Assembly (NCBI RefSeq): GCF_021513215.1 | Contig: NZ_CP090975.1 | Coordinates: 1,695,001 to 1,759,000, forward strand | Origin: Suttonella sp. R2A3 | Lineage (GTDB): Bacteria; Pseudomonadota; Gammaproteobacteria; Cardiobacteriales; Cardiobacteriaceae | Direction of reading: 5' to 3' | DNA length: 64,000 nucleotides | Shown: positions 7,250-15,480 of the stretch, piece after piece | Layout: each line of letters starts with the position of its first letter | Numbering within the stretch: position 1 is the stretch's first letter | Translations under genes and position numbers: made by a program | The notes under the pieces: model-generated | Seen by the model: only the letters and a program-made list of their open reading frames with translations | What the model was told of the DNA's origin: nothing | Database searches by the model: none

Positions 7250-9088
7250 ATGTGTGGCATTGTCGGCGCAATACGCGCGAAAAATAACGTCGTTGATTTT
7301 CTCACCGCTGGTTTGCAGCGTTTGGAGTATCGCGGCTACGATTCTTCCGGTATTGCAGTACTCAAAGCCGATAATGCGATTGACCGCGTGCGTCGTGTAG
7401 GGCGTGTCGCACAGATGGCAGAAGCCGCACGTGAGGCGAACACGCAAGGGCTACTTGGTATTGGTCATACACGCTGGGCAACCCATGGTGGGGTTAATGA
7501 GCCAAATGCCCACCCGCATGTTTCGGGTGAATTGATCGCTGTGGTACACAACGGTATCATCGAGAATTTTGAATCCGAGCGCGAGCGCCTAAGCGCTTTG
7601 GGTTATACCTTTGAATCGCAAACCGATACCGAAGTGATTGCGCATGCGATCCACGCAGAATACCAAAATAATCATGACTTAATGACGGCTGTGCGCGCAG
7701 CTTGCGCGCGTTTTCATGGCGCCTACGCGATTGGGGTGATTGCAGCGGACAAACCAAACGAGCTGGTTGCGGCACGGATGGGCTGTCCTTTGTTGGTGGC
7801 CTTAGGCGAAGAGGATACCTTTATCGCTTCTGATGTTTCAGCGGTGATCGCTGAAACGCGGCGAGTGATTTATCTTGAAGACGGGGATGTAGTACGCTTA
7901 ACCGCCTCTGGAGTTGCTGATTTATGCGATAGTGATGGTCAGCCGGTTAGTCGCGCTGAGCAGCGTTCGGCGCTGTCATTGGCTTCATTAGAGCTTGGCC
8001 CATACAGCCATTTTATGCAAAAAGAAATCCATGAGCAGCCAAGAGCGGTGGCTGATACGGCTGAAGCGCTGATTGATGATATGTTCTCACCAGCCATTTT
8101 TGGTGAGCAAGCAGAAGCAATTTTGCGCCGTACCAAGGGCATTAAAATACTTGCCTGCGGAACGTCTTATTACGCTGCGATGACCGCAAAATATTGGTTA
8201 GAAAGTATTGCTAAACTGCCTTGCGATGTCGAGATTGCCAGTGAATACCGCTACCGTCCGGTGATTGCTGATCCGGATGTGTTGGTGATCACGATCTCTC
8301 AATCTGGTGAAACGCTCGATACCATGGAAGCGCTCAAATACGCTAAAGCGCAGGGACACCGTTATAGTCTGTCGATTTGTAATGTGATGGAATCAGCATT
8401 ACCTCGAGCCAGCGATTTGGTATTTTATACCCGTGCTGGTGCAGAAATTGGCGTTGCATCAACCAAAGCGTTTACCACTCAATTGGTGGCGCTCTTTGGT
8501 TTGGCGGTGTGCTTGGGGAAATTACGCGGTTTGGTTGATGAAGAAGCAACCACGAATTATCTTGAAGCACTGCGCCACCTACCAGGCAGTGTGCAACACG
8601 CGCTCAATCTGGAACCGCAAATTACGGCGTGGGCGCAGGCATTTGCTAAGCGCGATCATGCCTTATTCTTAGGGCGTGGTATCCATTATCCGATTGCCTT
8701 AGAAGGCGCGTTAAAACTCAAAGAAATCACCTATATTCACGCTGAAGCGTATCCTGCTGGTGAGCTCAAGCATGGGCCGCTGGCGCTGGTCGATGAAAAT
8801 ATGCCGGTGGTGGTGATTGCGCCTAATGATGCCTTGCTCGATAAAGTGAAAGCGAATATGCAAGAAGTGGGGGCACGTGGCGGCAAGCTGTATGTGTTTA
8901 GCGATGATGATAGCGATATTACCGCCAGCGAAGGAATCAGCGTGATTCGCACACCACGTCATGTGGGGGTGCTCTCACCGATTGTCCACGTGGTGGCCGC
9001 TCAGTTGCTTGCCTATCATACCGCGCTGGCGCGTGGCACAGATGTCGATAAACCACGCAACCTCGCGAAAGCCGTCACAGTGGAATGA
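7250..9088 (+). CDS. glmS: Glutamine-fructose-6-phosphate aminotransferase (isomerizing)
   Basis: A 612-aa enzyme committing fructose-6-phosphate to UDP-GlcNAc synthesis. The start MCGIVGA exposes the N-terminal nucleophile Cys2 of the class II glutaminase domain (about 1-220). Two SIS isomerase domains follow (about 285-430 and 455-600); the C-terminus [11 protein letters not shown] is typical. No ribozyme or riboswitch is apparent in the 51-nt leader, as expected outside Firmicutes. Its stop overlaps the comF start as ATGA. Confidence 0.98.
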
Positions 9089-9753
9089 TTCAACATTTGT
9101 CCGCATATTTCCGGCGCCATTGTGTGGTGTGTCAGGATATCGCGGACGAACAATGGTTGTGTCGTTCCTGCGCGGCGCAATTGCGTCCTATTGGCTTGCA
9201 CTGCCCAACGTGCGCGAGTGCTGTGGCCGATCCCACAATCCCTTGTGGACGCTGCTTGGCCCATCCGCCACCATTTGATCAACTTTTTATTGGCTATCGC
9301 TACCAAGAGCCGGTGCGCTCAGTGTTGTTGGCGGCGAAATATGGCTTTCAGCGCGCAGCGTTAGCGCAATATGCTGAGTGGGCAAAAGCACTTTCCTGGT
9401 CCATTGAAGCGCTTGATTATGTGGTGCCGATGCCGATTGCTAAGCGGCGCTTGGTCCAACGCGGCTTTAACCAAACCCATTATTTAGGCTCAGCGATTGC
9501 CAAAGCCCATGGTGTGCCTTTATTAAAACAGGCGCTCATTAAAGCCAGCCGGCCACCACAATCAACGCTTGATAGCGACAGTGCGCGGCGGCGCAATATT
9601 GCGGGTGCGTTCCGTGCGAGACAGAAGCTGTCAGGACGTGTGCTCTTAGTTGACGATGTATTGACTTCAGGCGCTACAGCTAGCGCGGCTGCACGAGCGT
9701 TACGCGAAGGTGGCGCGGATTGGATTGGTGTGTTGGTGGTGGCAGCGCGATAA
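9085..9753 (+). CDS. comF: ComF family protein (phosphoribosyltransferase-like)
   Basis: A 222-aa protein of the ComF/GntX family, linked to natural transformation in some species; its biochemical substrate is not settled. N-terminal cysteine pairs (CVVC, CRSC, CPTC, CGRC; about 13-60) look like zinc binding. The PRPP-binding motif [13 protein letters not shown] lies near 190. It overlaps glmS by 4 nt and ends 33 nt from the convergent zapD, with no clear terminator between. Confidence 0.9.
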
Positions 9754-9786
9754 TTGGCGAGTTATCCCTATACCACGTTCATTCGC

Positions 9787-10560
9787 TTAAACCGCGCAAA
9801 TTTGCAGGTCAAACGTAACCGGGGTGTTGATTTGTTTGGCGCGCTGGTCAGGTTCATCTTGCTTCATAAAGCGAATTGAAAAGCGGTGTTTGTCGCCGCT
9901 GATTCTTGGGAATACACCCAACTCTTGGGGGATATGGATGCGGATCATTTGGTAGGTGCGGTGATGATCAAGAGTTTGTAAAAACATCGCATCTTCGCTC
10001 GATTGGTGAGTTTGCTCGCTGCCTGAGCGCACTAAATGCAAAATTAAATCTACCGATTTTTTAATCGGTAGAAAACGCTCATAACAATCAAGCAAAAAAG
10101 CGCTCTTGTCTGCTTCACTTTTGGCCAACCAATGCTGATAAGCCGGTACTTCAAACAAGCAATTGCCGCTTTTTAGAAAGCTGCGTTGGCGCAGGCTGTT
10201 AAAAAGTTCGTTTTCGCGTAATGCGCTGATAATATTTAAATTGATTTGGTGGGCAGATTGGATATTACTGGTGATTTCATCCAAAATCGTTTTTTCTGAA
10301 CAATCACAGGGGTGATAATCTTCGCATTCGCCACATTCGACCACATTTTTATAGCGGTGCAACTCTTTAATCAGCTCTGAGCGAATTTCGTAGCGGTGTA
10401 AGAAGTCCAGTACGTCAAATAAGGCATCAAGAAACAATTGAATCTCGTAATAGTCGGTGGCGCGGTGGAATTGCTCCATTTGTCTAAACATCGATTCTAA
10501 ACGCATACATAAACGAATACGTTCATTTAATGGCTGCTCAAAAATAGATAGTGCGGGCAT
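9787..10560 (-). CDS. zapD: Cell division protein ZapD, with an unusual cysteine cluster
   Basis: A 257-aa FtsZ-bundling protein of the Z ring. FEQPLNERIR near the N-terminus, RSELIKELHRY, and the C-terminal ISGDKHRFSIRFM match E. coli ZapD. The start at 10560 (MPALSI) is chosen because it leaves six residues before FEQPLNE, as in E. coli; an upstream in-frame ATG ends at 10596. Neither has a convincing ribosome site. C76, C79, C85 and C87 form CxxC-x5-CxC where I recall no cysteines in the E. coli protein. The usual neighbours coaE and yacG are not adjacent. Confidence 0.9.
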   Translation of the reverse strand: MPALSIFEQPLNERIRLCMRLESMFRQMEQFHRATDYYEIQLFLDALFDVLDFLHRYEIRSELIKELHRYKNVVECGECEDYHPCDCSEKTILDEITSNIQSAHQINLNIISALRENELFNSLRQRSFLKSGNCLFEVPAYQHWLAKSEADKSAFLLDCYERFLPIKKSVDLILHLVRSGSEQTHQSSEDAMFLQTLDHHRTYQMIRIHIPQELGVFPRISGDKHRFSIRFMKQDEPDQRAKQINTPVTFDLQICAV

Positions 10561-10637
10561 TAGAGAATTGGGTTGTCTGACATGGATTACTAGCATAACT
10601 GCTTATGCGTAACATGTCATTATCGACTATTTGCTGA

Positions 10638-10666
10638 TTGCAAGAACGTACCTAAATTGATATAGT
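10638..10666 (+). promoter_or_regulatory. Predicted promoter of the rne-tal gene
   Basis: TTGCAA (10638-10643), a 17-bp spacer, and TATAGT (10661-10666). Initiation near 10673 would leave a leader of about 180 nt before the ATG at 10855. A long leader is reminiscent of E. coli rne, whose 5' UTR mediates autoregulation. A small GTTCG/CGAAC hairpin (10751-10765) lies in this leader. Confidence 0.6.
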
Positions 10667-10682
10667 TAGCGCCTTAACTATA
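10661..10682. promoter_or_regulatory. Perfect palindrome over the rne-tal promoter -10 and start site
   Basis: TATAGTTA (10661-10668) and TAACTATA (10675-10682) are exact reverse complements with a 6-nt centre. The left arm contains the predicted -10 hexamer. This geometry suits a repressor operator, or a hairpin at the very 5' end of the transcript. No specific regulator can be named. Confidence 0.5.
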
Positions 10683-10854
10683 AAGGCTTTTGCCAAAGAT
10701 GATAAACGCATTATTTCGTTTCACCATCCCACTTTTTTCTTGCCGGTCGTGTTCGGTTATCGAACGCTGTCTGGTAATTTTTGTGTCTTTTTATCACGAT
10801 ACGTGCCCGGTTGGCGGATAGCCGATGCGGGCGTTTTACAAGGAAATTTTTATA

Positions 10855-13800
10855 ATGAAAAGAATGTTAATCAATGCCACGCAGCAAGAAGAGCTGCGCG
10901 TGGCGCTTGTCGACGGACAACAACTCTACGATCTCGATATCGAAACGCTGTACTCAACCCAGAAAAAAGCCAATATTTACAAAGGGAAAATTACGCGTAT
11001 CGAGCCATCTTTAGAGGCTGTTTTTGTCGACTACGGCTCACAACGCCATGGTTTTCTACCGTTTAAGGAAATCAGCAAGGAATATCTAACCGGTTCAACG
11101 AACGCCAGCGATCATCAGCCTAGCTTCAAAGATATGATTGAAGTGGGCCAGGAAGTGCTGGTGCAGATCGATAAAGAAGAGCGCGGCAGCAAAGGCGCTG
11201 CGTTAACCACTTATATTTCACTCGCTGGACGTTTTTTGGTGCTAATGCCAAACAATCCACGCGCCGGTGGTGTCTCACGCCGTATCCAAGGCGATGACCG
11301 TAAAGAACTGCGTGATACACTCGATCAACTTGATGTGCCGGACAATGTGGGTGTTATTGTGCGCACCGCTGGTGTCGGGCGTTCACAAGAAGAGCTGCAA
11401 TGGGATCTCGATTTCCTGTTGCAATTGTGGGACGCGATTTCTGAAGAATACGACAAAGCCACGCCACAACGCCTGATTTACCAAGAAAGCAATATTATCG
11501 TGCGCGCTTTGCGAGATTATCTGCGTCCGGATATCGGTCAAATTCTGATTGATGATGAGCGCGTCTATCAGCAGGCCGCTGATTTTATGAATCTGGTCAT
11601 GCCGAGCAATGTGCACAAGCTTAAGCTTTATCAAGACAGCATTCCTCTATTCACCCGCTATCAAATCGAAGGGCAAATCGAATCGGCGTATCAGCGTAAT
11701 GTGCAGTTGCCGAGCGGTGGCGAATTGGTGATTGACTACACCGAAGCGTTGGTGTCGATTGATATTAACTCATCGCGCTCAACCAAAGGTGGCGACATCG
11801 AGGAAACCGCGTACCAAACCAACCTTGAAGCGGCTGATGAGATTGCCCGACAAATGCGTTTGCGCGATTTGGGCGGCTTGTTGGTGATCGATTTTATCGA
11901 TATGAACGCCTCACGCAATCGTAAAGATGTGGAGCAGCGTTTGTATGACGCCACACAAATTGACCGTGCACGCGTGCAAATCGGGCGGATTTCGCGCTTT
12001 GGTTTGCTCGAACTATCACGTCAGCGCCTGCGTCCGTCAATTGATGAGGCGAGTCATCGCGTGTGCCCACGCTGTAAAGGCCAAGGCAGCATTCGTGGCA
12101 TTCAGTCGATGGCGCTGTCTTTGTTGCGTCTGATTGAAGAAGAGGCGATGAAAGACCGTACCCAACGTATTACCGGCGAATTGCCGGTGAGCATTGCTAC
12201 GTATTTGCTTAATGAAAAACGCGCCGCGGTGCGTCAGATCGAGCAGCGTAATAATGTCGAAGTGGTGTTAATGCCGAACGCCAATTTACACACGCCGGAC
12301 TACCATATCACGCGTTTACGCGATGATGAGGTGGGCGAAGATTTAGCGAATACGCCAAGCTATCGTCTGCCGGTACAAAAAGAAAGCGCCGAAGAAAGTG
12401 ATGCGCAAAATACGCAGCCAGTGCGTGAGCAGGCCGCTGTGCAAGGGGTGGTACCGAAAGTACCATTGCCTGTGGCGGCGCAAAGCAAACCAGATGCGAC
12501 GAGCAAAAAAGGCTTATCCGCGCTGTTTTCGAAAGTGGTGGCGTTATTCAAAGACGATGTGGTTTCAGATAAACAAGCGGCAGCGAAAGAACTCGCAGAC
12601 GAACAATCAAACAACCAAGAACGTCAATCGCGCAACAATAACCGTTCACGCAATGGTGGTCGTTCGCGCAATAATCGTCAGAAAAACCGCGACGATAACC
12701 GCCAGGACAACCGTCAAGATAATCGCCAGGATCAAGGCCGTCAGCAAAAATCACAAAACGACGATAAAGGCCAGAAAGACGCGCAGAAAAACGACAAATC
12801 GTCGAATAAACAGGCGCAGAATGGCAAAAACCGTGATGACCAACAAAATGGTCGCAATAAACAGCAGCAGCGCAAGCAAGACAATCAACAAGAGCGTCGA
12901 CAGAATCGCAAAGCTGCTGCCCAAGAAGCGGCCAAAGACGAAGTGAATCCAAGCATTGAAGAGCTCACGAATCCGCCGAGCGAAATCAACGGACGCGAAG
13001 TGCGTAAAGGGCGTCCTCGTGATATCCATGCGGTGCGTGGTCAAGGCAAAGCCGATTATCAGGCCGCGCCTGAGGATGGCTTAGGAAACGAGCAAGCTGC
13101 TGTAGAGCAGCAGCCAGCAAAGGCACAGAAGCAAGAAAAGCCACGCCCTGAACAGCCACCAGTGAAACAGGATGCGCCAGGAATGGTCGCGATGCTCAAT
13201 GATGCACCGAAGAAGGACGTAGCAGCAAAGGCCGAGGACAAACCTGCTGAAACCGCACAAGCCGAGAAGCCTAAAGCGCAAGCAGCAAAGGTTGAAAAAA
13301 CGGAAGCGCCAAAGGTGAATCAAAGCGCGGACACTCAATCAGAAGCTAAACCTGAGGCTAAGTTAGACGCCAAACCTGCGCCAGCGAGTGATAAACAACC
13401 CGCTAAAACAGTCACCGCTAAAGCTTCAGAAAACCCATTAACGGCGTTACCTGGCTTGGGACAAAGTATCTGGTTTGATAATATCCATCGCCGCATGCTG
13501 GCCGATGGTGAATTAACTGCGATGATCAAAGCAGACGATTTGCGCGGGGTCACTTCTAACCCGGCGATTTTCCAAAAAGCGATGAGCGATGGGGATGCCT
13601 ACGATGCCGGCTTAAAAGCCTGGTTGGCGGCTAATGAAGCGGATCCGCGTGAGGCGTTCTTTGCGCTCGCGATTGAGGATATTCAGCAAGCCTGTGATCA
13701 GATGAAACCGGTGTATGAGAAAACCGATGGTACCGATGGTATGGTTTCCTTGGAAGTTTCCCCAGATATCGCACACGATGCGGATAAGACCGTGGCCGAA

Positions 13801-14550
13801 GCGTTAGCGCTGCATAAGCGCGTGGCGCGTGAGAATGTGATGATTAAAGTGCCGGGGACTGAAGCAGGTTTGCAAGCAATTAGTGCACTCACCGCTGCTG
13901 GGCTGAACATCAACGTCACCTTGTTATTCTCGGTAGCGCGTTATCAGGCAGTGCTTGAGGCCTACATTGACGGCTTGAAGCAGCGTGTGGCTGATGGGAA
14001 GTCGATTGATATGGTGCGTTCGGTAGCAAGCTTCTTCGTTAGCCGTGTCGATAGCAAAGTCGATGATGCGTTAGGCGAGGAACACGCTGGCTTGCGTGGT
14101 CGCGCCGCGATCGCTAATGCACAATTGGCTTATGCGTATTATCTTGAGCGCATCAGCCATGATGATTGGTTGGTGCTTGCGCAGAAAGGCGCAGCAGTGC
14201 AGCGTTTGTTGTGGGCCTCTACCGGTACGAAAAACCCGAACTATTCGGATGTACGCTATGTCGACCAATTAATTGGCGCGGATACGGTCAATACCGTTCC
14301 ACCTGCCACTTACGCGGCATTTAAAGATCATGGTAAAGCAGCGAACACGCTATTGCGCGATATCGACAAAGCGCCTGAAGTCATGCAAGCGGTAGCCGAT
14401 GCTGGGGTTGATGTGGCGTTAATTACCGCTGATTTAGAACGCGAAGGTGTGGCGCAATTTGAAGCAGCATTTGCTGATTTGCTCGCCTCTTTGCAGAAAA
14501 AAATCGATTCATTGCAGCCGGTAGAAGAAACGGCAAATAACGATGAATAA
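10855..14550 (+). CDS. rne: Ribonuclease E fused to a complete transaldolase
   Basis: One uninterrupted 1231-aa frame. Residues 1-510 are the RNase E catalytic half: S1 domain about 36-125, 5'-sensor Arg-Thr at 170-171, catalytic D303 and D346, and zinc-link C404/C407, matching E. coli numbering. Residues 551-567 form an amphipathic helix like the membrane-targeting segment. About 570-860 is a disordered linker, first Asn/Arg/Gln-rich, then Lys/Ala/Glu/Pro-rich. Residues 862-1220 are a full-length transaldolase of the plant/mycobacterial-like type, with WFDN (D875), SNPAIF, SLEVSP (E967) and Schiff-base K998 in MIKVPGTEAG. The ATG at 10855 is preferred over the in-frame 10825 because AGGA lies 10 nt upstream and the protein then begins MKRMLINATQ like other RNase E. 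It overlaps ycaR by 8 nt. Confidence 0.95.
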   Translation: MKRMLINATQQEELRVALVDGQQLYDLDIETLYSTQKKANIYKGKITRIEPSLEAVFVDYGSQRHGFLPFKEISKEYLTGSTNASDHQPSFKDMIEVGQEVLVQIDKEERGSKGAALTTYISLAGRFLVLMPNNPRAGGVSRRIQGDDRKELRDTLDQLDVPDNVGVIVRTAGVGRSQEELQWDLDFLLQLWDAISEEYDKATPQRLIYQESNIIVRALRDYLRPDIGQILIDDERVYQQAADFMNLVMPSNVHKLKLYQDSIPLFTRYQIEGQIESAYQRNVQLPSGGELVIDYTEALVSIDINSSRSTKGGDIEETAYQTNLEAADEIARQMRLRDLGGLLVIDFIDMNASRNRKDVEQRLYDATQIDRARVQIGRISRFGLLELSRQRLRPSIDEASHRVCPRCKGQGSIRGIQSMALSLLRLIEEEAMKDRTQRITGELPVSIATYLLNEKRAAVRQIEQRNNVEVVLMPNANLHTPDYHITRLRDDEVGEDLANTPSYRLPVQKESAEESDAQNTQPVREQAAVQGVVPKVPLPVAAQSKPDATSKKGLSALFSKVVALFKDDVVSDKQAAAKELADEQSNNQERQSRNNNRSRNGGRSRNNRQKNRDDNRQDNRQDNRQDQGRQQKSQNDDKGQKDAQKNDKSSNKQAQNGKNRDDQQNGRNKQQQRKQDNQQERRQNRKAAAQEAAKDEVNPSIEELTNPPSEINGREVRKGRPRDIHAVRGQGKADYQAAPEDGLGNEQAAVEQQPAKAQKQEKPRPEQPPVKQDAPGMVAMLNDAPKKDVAAKAEDKPAETAQAEKPKAQAAKVEKTEAPKVNQSADTQSEAKPEAKLDAKPAPASDKQPAKTVTAKASENPLTALPGLGQSIWFDNIHRRMLADGELTAMIKADDLRGVTSNPAIFQKAMSDGDAYDAGLKAWLAANEADPREAFFALAIEDIQQACDQMKPVYEKTDGTDGMVSLEVSPDIAHDADKTVAEALALHKRVARENVMIKVPGTEAGLQAISALTAAGLNINVTLLFSVARYQAVLEAYIDGLKQRVADGKSIDMVRSVASFFVSRVDSKVDDALGEEHAGLRGRAAIANAQLAYAYYLERISHDDWLVLAQKGAAVQRLLWASTGTKNPNYSDVRYVDQLIGADTVNTVPPATYAAFKDHGKAANTLLRDIDKAPEVMQAVADAGVDVALITADLEREGVAQFEAAFADLLASLQKKIDSLQPVEETANNDE

Positions 14551-14722
14551 GCAACTCCTTGCCACCTTGCGCTGCCCAATCACTGGGCAGTCGCTGGTGC
14601 AACGCGATGCTGAGCCAGACTTCCTTTATACCGCTGATGGGGCGTATCGCTACCCGTTAGAAAACGGAATCGCACTGTTGCTCGCTGAATATGGCGAAGC
14701 GCTGTCGTCTCAGGAAAGTTAG
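14543..14722 (+). CDS. ycaR: Trm112-like small protein, YcaR/UPF0434 family
   Basis: A 59-aa reading frame beginning MNKQLLATLRCPITGQSL and ending just before kdsB. RCPITGQSL, YPLENGIALLL and the position before kdsB match YcaR, a Trm112-like family. Only one of the usual zinc cysteines (C11) is present, as in many gammaproteobacterial YcaR. It overlaps the rne-tal stop by 8 nt. In E. coli ycaR sits between lpxK and kdsB; here lpxK is absent and rne takes the upstream place. Confidence 0.85.
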   Translation: MNKQLLATLRCPITGQSLVQRDAEPDFLYTADGAYRYPLENGIALLLAEYGEALSSQES

Positions 14723-14724
14723 CT

Positions 14725-15480
14725 ATGGATAAGACGGACGCGGTGGTGGTCATTCCGGCGCGTTTTGCCGCCAGTCGCTTGCCGGGTAAGCCTTTACGCG
14801 AGATTGCTGGTGTGCCGATGATTCGTCGCACTGCCTTACAAGCGTTAAAAAGCGGTTTGCCGGTGTGGGTCGCTTATGACGATACACGGATTGCAGCAGC
14901 GCTCGATGGCGTGGACGTTAGCTTGGCAGCCACACGTGAAGATCACGACAATGGCAGCGAGCGCTTAAGCGAAGTGGTGACTAACGAAGCCTGGGATGAT
15001 GAGCAAATTGTCGTGAATGTGCAGGGCGATGAACCGTTGCTGCCGCCTGCGCTCATCGCGCGAGTGGCAGAAACATTAGCTGCTGCTCCATGGGCAGGCG
15101 TGGCAACGCTTGCCGCGCCATTTGACGCAGCGCATTCACCCGCTGCGGCGACCGCGGTTAAGGTGGTGTGTGATCGGCAAGGCCGCGCGCTGTATTTCAG
15201 TCGCAGCGCGATTCCGTATGTGCGTGATGCTGATGGGGTGAGCGGCGATTTTCCGTATTTACGCCATATTGGCATTTACGCGTATCGCGTGAGCGTGCTT
15301 AAGCGCTATCCCAGCCTGTGTAAAACCCCGTTAGAACAAGCAGAAAAACTCGAACAACTGCGTTTTATCGAACACGGTATCGATGTGGCTGTGGGTGTGG
15401 TTGATGAAGTGCCTCCGCCGGGTGTGGATTGCGAAGAAGATATCCAACGCGTTGAAGCGGTACTCGCCAGCGCACGTTAA
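14725..15480 (+). CDS. kdsB: 3-deoxy-manno-octulosonate cytidylyltransferase (CMP-KDO synthetase)
   Basis: A 251-aa enzyme activating KDO with CTP for lipopolysaccharide inner core. The N-terminal IPARFAASRLPGKPL is the cytidylyltransferase signature; NVQGDEPLLP and YFSRSAIPY are conserved KdsB motifs. AGGAA (14712-14716) sits 8 nt before the ATG, inside the end of ycaR. Its presence implies a Gram-negative outer membrane with KDO. Confidence 0.96.
   Translation: MDKTDAVVVIPARFAASRLPGKPLREIAGVPMIRRTALQALKSGLPVWVAYDDTRIAAALDGVDVSLAATREDHDNGSERLSEVVTNEAWDDEQIVVNVQGDEPLLPPALIARVAETLAAAPWAGVATLAAPFDAAHSPAAATAVKVVCDRQGRALYFSRSAIPYVRDADGVSGDFPYLRHIGIYAYRVSVLKRYPSLCKTPLEQAEKLEQLRFIEHGIDVAVGVVDEVPPPGVDCEEDIQRVEAVLASAR

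Follow-up and report, generated by a model that had tools for sequence, protein, structure and literature searches.

An RNase E joined in one reading frame to a complete transaldolase in Suttonella sp. R2A3 and other Cardiobacteriales

In the window considered here, a 64,000-nucleotide stretch of the Suttonella sp. R2A3 genome (contig NZ_CP090975.1, positions 1,695,001 to 1,759,000), RNase E, the chief nuclease acting on mRNA, and a complete transaldolase, an enzyme of sugar-phosphate metabolism, are encoded as one protein by a single uninterrupted reading frame (rne::tal), which runs on the + strand from 10855 to a stop at 14550. The fusion is real, chance or an assembly error being very unlikely because the same architecture is found in other genomes, and we propose, with moderate confidence, that it yields a bifunctional protein keeping transaldolase permanently in the degradosome, as a covalent counterpart of docked enolase. 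An earlier note on this DNA had described one frame of 1231 amino acids (aa) joining an RNase E half to a full-length transaldolase, with D303, D346, C404, C407 and K998 as its marker residues; the frame is seen in the sequence and in the Pfam profiles, and all five residues lie at those positions. The main features of the gene are the following:

10855..14550, + strand: rne::tal fusion gene, 1231 aa plus stop, 136.5 kDa (open reading frame, Pfam and NCBIfam profiles)
10840..10844, + strand: Shine-Dalgarno-like AAGGA before the ATG at 10855 (read from the sequence)
10960..11208, + strand: S1 RNA-binding domain (Pfam PF00575)
11218..12027, + strand: RNase E/G catalytic domain with D303 and D346 (Pfam PF10150)
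12061..12315, + strand: RNase_E_G_Thio domain, with the Zn-link residues C404 and C407 at or just before its start (Pfam PF20833)
12352..13431, + strand: low-complexity, mostly disordered tail or linker, about 360 aa (alignment; low predicted local distance difference test score, pLDDT, over most of it)
13432..14550, + strand: complete transaldolase domain, with the Schiff-base K998 in MIKVP at 13840-13854 (Pfam, NCBIfam, structure, alignment)

The Pfam domains follow one another in the order S1 (E-value 8.6e-10), RNase_E_G (1.3e-97), RNase_E_G_Thio (1.1e-31) and TAL_FSA (1.8e-79), each close to full length. An alternative in-frame ATG upstream, at 10825, would give a protein of 1241 aa; the start at 10855 is preferred because of the AAGGA element and because translation from it opens with MKRMLINA, the type of start common to most of the fused relatives in the alignment and to solved RNase E. 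Neither a promoter scan of 10400-14900 nor the in-frame start codons around the junction pointed to a tal product made separately: the scan, of a kind that is weak, returned a single promoter-like + strand site, at 10638 before rne, and between 80 codons before the junction and 20 after it the only in-frame starts are GTG 13315 and TTG 13456. The interval 9700-15000 gave no Rfam match.

An RNase E of known structure (2vrt, E-value 2.7e-206) matches the N-terminal half along its length, and this half passes the subfamily model TIGR00757 (526.3 vs. a cut-off of 325.95). It is assigned to RNase E rather than RNase G by the combination of S1, RNase_E_G and the Zn-link half carrying D303, D346, C404 and C407, and by the long disordered C-terminal scaffold with its predicted membrane helix and arginine-rich region. 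The equivalog cut-off of PRK10811 is narrowly missed (891 of 908 bits), a shortfall probably due to the differing tail, since only profile positions 1-713 of 1068 are matched. Two RNase_E_G matches occur in the R2A3 genome, the fusion itself and an RNase G-sized frame of 494 aa elsewhere. Both catalytic domains of the fusion are under purifying selection, as judged by pairwise ratios of non-synonymous to synonymous substitution rates (dN/dS), which for RNase E lie at 0.02-0.05 in four pairs of genomes.

The transaldolase domain is no less complete, its TAL_FSA match spanning profile positions 1-284 of 285, and it passes both the full-length model PRK03343 (481.8 vs. 367 bits) and TIGR00876, tal_mycobact (318.7 vs. 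233.75 bits), while it falls short of PRK09533, the bifunctional transaldolase/phosphoglucose isomerase (477.8 of 712 bits, profile positions 2-374 of 949). The nearest solved structures, 7bbw/3clm of Neisseria gonorrhoeae and 3r5e of Corynebacterium glutamicum, are all transaldolases. Seven residues, D875, N902, E967, K998, N1020, S1059 and R1064, are invariant across 12 aligned fused domains (G011 is not in this alignment); their catalytic roles we take to be those of the corresponding residues of E. coli TalB. An AlphaFold2 model, whose input comprised L071 as its only fused relative besides 23 further transaldolases, has a pLDDT above 90 over most of the domain and superimposes on gonococcal 7bbx with a template modelling score of 0.96 by target length and a root-mean-square deviation of 1.5. 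The dN/dS values confined to the domain are 0.045 for G000/G001 (where dS is 2.0, near saturation), 0.112 for G004/G009, 0.028 for G002/G008 and 0.048 for G007/G010; counting the C-terminal extensions as tal gave 0.05-0.20. The highest ratio belongs to two genomes that each have a transaldolase besides the fusion, perhaps a hint of slightly relaxed selection on the fused copy there. With its invariant active site, low dN/dS and close fit of the model, the domain looks like a working enzyme. The gonococcal protein (3clm, 7bbx, 7bbw) is of the same type and fold, with 45% identity in the structural match, but is free-standing. A lysine-cysteine redox bridge is known in that enzyme; the positions of its Lys8/Cys38 pair (variants K8A and C38S) are taken in the fusion by P866 and R897, so that the bridge is impossible here and a redox switch of the gonococcal type is ruled out. 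The window protein extends about 10 residues past the aligned domain, and the proteins of G004 (L036), G009 (L041), G002 (L034) and G008 (L040) carry some 70-130 extra low-complexity residues after it.

The order search covered 32 genomes, namely 12 of the group f1, here taken as Cardiobacteriaceae from the name of one member (G007) and comprising seven genera, 18 of f2, one of f3 (G013) and one of f4 (G014). RNase E and transaldolase share one frame in ten of the 12 f1 genomes (G000-G009, frames of 1242-1352 aa) and in the f3 genome (1226 aa), so that a check on relatives, advised in the earlier note, found the fusion common to f1 and to the single f3 genome, which belongs to a different family. 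The G006 frame lacks the first part of RNase E; in that genome transketolase is split over two frames and stops lie inside the enolase match, which together suggests a poor draft or gene decay. In the remaining two f1 genomes the gene is in pieces: in G010 the RNase E frame and the tal frame each run to a contig end, on two different contigs, and in G011 a frameshift breaks tal into two overlapping frames. These breaks fit draft assemblies, and since the R2A3 genome is a single contig and the architecture is conserved in ten f1 genomes and in f3, an assembly or sequencing artefact can be rejected as next to impossible. No clear return to separate genes was seen in the 12 f1 genomes or in f3. 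Free tal genes occur in f4 (370-aa frame) and in 15 of the 18 f2 genomes (362-399 aa); the other three (G022, G029, G030) have no transaldolase match and possess transketolase.

A single origin of the fusion, compatible with both domain trees, would be the simplest reading. The RNase E tree places the fused f1 sequences in one group, with f1 and f3 to one side of a branch (100/99); in the tal tree the fused f1 sequences stand together (99/93), with f1 and f3 again to one side (92/94, not starred). The source of the fused tal is not revealed by the tree, because the free tal of f4 and f2 groups apart from it, the f2 sequences being joined weakly (72/63). An origin from an operon in which tal already stood beside rne was considered, and such an arrangement was not seen in the f2 and f4 stretches fetched: no tal match turned up in ten f2 rne stretches, seven of them 16 kb long and three shorter, four f2 tal stretches held no rne match, and in f4, where the rne contig ends inside the tail and only the tal side could be used, 15 kb on that side held no rne. 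Around the fusion, in the other 11 f1 genomes, zapD precedes it in nine, kdsB follows in eight, and uvrC and pgsA follow in six. Upstream in the window, at 7250-9753, lie glmS (TIGR01135) and a comF-like gene, neither of which is present in the stretches fetched from those 11 genomes.

Between the two enzymes, the disordered tail carries several conserved elements:

12427..12471, + strand: short conserved motif EQAAVQGVVPKVPLP (alignment)
12511..12558, + strand: amphipathic stretch GLSALFSKVVALFKDD, resembling a membrane-targeting sequence (alignment; modelled as a helix, with low to intermediate confidence)
12622..12705, + strand: R/N/Q-rich stretch, AR1-like putative RNA-binding region (alignment)
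12943..13053, + strand: strongly conserved tail block VNPSIEELTNPPSEINGREVRKGRPRDIHAVRGQGKA (alignment)
13174..13203, + strand: short conserved motif APGMVAMLND (alignment)

Four tail blocks are kept across f1, namely EQAAVQG..P..P.P, the amphipathic stretch GLSALFSKVVALFK, VNPSIEELxNPPxEINGREVRKGRPRDxHAVRGQGKA and APGMVALL; in the f3 protein they are only partly retained. A KGRPR-like core is also present in several f2 proteins, whose RNase E tail is not followed by transaldolase, and part of the block at 12943..13053 is thus probably older than the fusion. The amphipathic stretch occupies the place of the RNase E membrane-targeting sequence, an element reported in almost all Gammaproteobacteria in the accessible part of a survey of gammaproteobacterial RNase E (PMC4435900). 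Its hydrophobic moment in the window protein (at mean hydrophobicity above 0.3) was equalled in one of 500 shuffles of the linker, and the best amphipathic 14-mer falls at this stretch in eight of 12 sequences, which makes placement of the fusion at the membrane through a tail helix plausible. The role in RNA binding suggested for 12622..12705 is drawn by analogy with E. coli and Pseudomonas RNase E. In the AlphaFold2 model parts of the tail are helical with low to intermediate confidence, and the linker dN/dS is 0.22-0.32 across the three pairs that yielded a value.

As to the metabolic setting, the earlier note had called for a check on stand-alone tal genes, and for R2A3 the answer is clear: the fusion is the sole transaldolase family match in the genome, which is one contig. 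The same applies to seven of the 12 f1 genomes and to G013. The other five (G001, G003, G004, G009, G011) possess a second, free transaldolase that passes the TalA/B model TIGR00874, and G004, G009 and G011 show an additional short match of 226-256 aa. Transketolase is present in all 32 genomes of the order and enolase in all 12 of f1. Glucose-6-phosphate dehydrogenase was found in only six of the 32, namely G004, G005, G006, G009 and G011 of f1 and G014 of f4, and not in R2A3 or G013. Given this absence, the non-oxidative branch, with its transaldolase on RNase E, is the likely route linking glycolytic and pentose phosphates in R2A3.

Beyond the order, the class, phylum and named-genome searches were samples and not a census. 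Among 369 genomes of the class, the general transaldolase family matched 177 and PRK03343 matched 108 at 1e-60, with all match rows listed for the latter. Fifteen of these PRK03343 frames exceed 850 aa: four are the fusions of G000, G001, G005 and G013, one, a partial match in a 24281-aa 'frame' of G199, was left out of the RNase E check, and the ten others, once fetched, had no RNase E match. Most or all of these ten, which come from outside the Cardiobacteriales, are transaldolase-phosphoglucose isomerase fusions; the isomerase match was computed in G093, G149, G179, G264, G290 and G360, seen by eye in the sequence of G226 (where the C-terminal half was the query) and G329, and presumed from length alone in G340 and G372. 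The phylum sample (398 genomes, 274 matched) adds little, the three longest frames among the matches listed (983, 753 and 611 aa) being without RNase E. A scan of named genomes covering at least 80 loci placed RNase E in one of the 80 loci listed, L071 (Cardiobacteriaceae bacterium S15M_Sa_46), which is the same DNA as G007 and hence no new case. A 1000-aa stop-to-stop frame containing tal in Deltaproteobacteria SJ588 (L106:5944-8943) is a further transaldolase-phosphoglucose isomerase fusion.

The explanation that we favour begins in the common ancestry of f1 and f3, with an event that would have placed tal behind rne and joined the two through the disordered RNase E tail. The N-terminal half would cut RNA as RNase E, the C-terminal domain would work as transaldolase, and the tail would hold both enzymes at the inner membrane and bind RNA and partners. 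With both activities on one tail-anchored protein, the degradosome would contain transaldolase permanently and in stoichiometric amount, much as that of E. coli contains docked enolase, and selection may have favoured the co-location, for example because glycolytic and pentose phosphates would then be interconverted close to RNA turnover. That the fusion might go further and act as a built-in metabolic sensor, with fructose-6-phosphate or sedoheptulose-7-phosphate at the Schiff-base site altering RNase E activity, clustering or substrate choice, seems to us quite unlikely; if true, mRNA decay would answer directly to the sizes of the pentose phosphate pools. A link from sugar-phosphate status to mRNA decay had been raised in the earlier note; no coupling of this kind is evident from the computed results.

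Several observations weigh against the proposal of a permanent degradosome member. The free TalA/B-type enzyme in five of the 12 f1 genomes means that the fused copy is not always the sole supply of transaldolase. Five of the six genomes with glucose-6-phosphate dehydrogenase belong to f1, so that genomes with the fusion are not consistently those lacking the oxidative branch, and an account built on the missing branch alone is weakened. The long branch of G013 in both trees leaves its placement less sure and a single origin not firm. The best amphipathic 14-mer lies elsewhere in four of 12 sequences (G005, G007, G013 and G010, the last being truncated and without the amphipathic region), and the fast-evolving tail is what would be expected of a flexible tether rather than of a tuned coupling element.

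Some of these points are shared by the main rival, a harmless fusion in which a stop codon was lost, both enzymes work on a flexible tether and the joining itself was not selected; we regard it as possible, if somewhat doubtful. A linker that is fast and variable in length (dN/dS 0.22-0.32) between two conserved catalytic domains is compatible with it, as is the second transaldolase in five f1 genomes, but neither the 12 f1 genomes, which span seven genera, nor the f3 genome show a clear fission (fission may be rare), and the fused tal is retained even beside a free one. Cleavage of the whole protein within the disordered tail, which would free a cytosolic transaldolase, appears improbable. 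Long disordered tails are prone to proteolysis. Proteolysis of E. coli RNase E on detachment from the membrane is also reported in the accessible part of PMC6850036; no conserved block that could serve as a cleavage site lies directly before tal, however, the conserved blocks being further upstream.

We consider it very improbable that the transaldolase domain has given up its metabolic role to become an RNA-binding, oligomerising or partner-docking module. The free second enzyme in five f1 genomes and the comparatively high dN/dS of G004/G009 (0.112, the highest of the four pairs), both with such a copy, would agree with this, whereas the seven active-site residues are invariant, also in G001, G003, G004 and G009 with their second transaldolase, dN/dS nowhere exceeds 0.112, and the fused copy is the sole match in seven of the 12 genomes. 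E. coli TalA and TalB were included in a genomic SELEX (systematic evolution of ligands by exponential enrichment) enzyme set and are not among the seven enzymes named with unique RNA clusters in the accessible part of that study (PMC10380284), a comparison in which TalA and TalB belong to another subfamily than the fused transaldolase.

The proposed permanent association has close parallels among known systems. E. coli RNase E with its docked enolase likewise combines a catalytic half, a disordered tail, a membrane helix and an arginine-rich region, the last three being predicted in the fusion, and keeps an enzyme of central carbon metabolism near RNase E; there, however, enolase is docked, whereas here transaldolase is held covalently. 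Covalent fusion of the same transaldolase type is itself natural in the PRK09533 proteins, although their partner, phosphoglucose isomerase, comes from neighbouring sugar metabolism and is not an RNase. Aconitase associates with RNase E in Caulobacter. Aconitase is described with RNase E, and enolase and phosphofructokinase in a degradosome-like network of Bacillus subtilis, in the accessible parts of PMC3991390 and PMC8152036; these too are metabolic enzymes, but other ones and bound non-covalently. The accessible part of the RNase E survey (PMC4435900) assigns an enolase-binding site to no orders but Vibrionales, Pasteurellales and Enterobacteriales, and Cardiobacter, Dichelobacter and transaldolase are absent from its main text. 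The earlier note knew of no account of such a fusion, and the literature searched, which leaves out most subscription journals, yielded no description of an RNase E-transaldolase protein. What is known is the presence of metabolic enzymes in degradosomes; what would be new is the covalent link and transaldolase as the enzyme.

Enolase, aconitase and phosphofructokinase occur in the RNA-decay complexes of unrelated bacteria. In the Cardiobacteriaceae evolution has made such an association covalent and kept it across the family, and several members have no transaldolase match other than the fused one, so that a single gene can serve to test the co-location of metabolism and RNA decay or the binding of metabolites within it. 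Nature has thus provided, in this fusion, an uncommon system in which to ask what metabolic enzymes are doing in the machinery of RNA decay.

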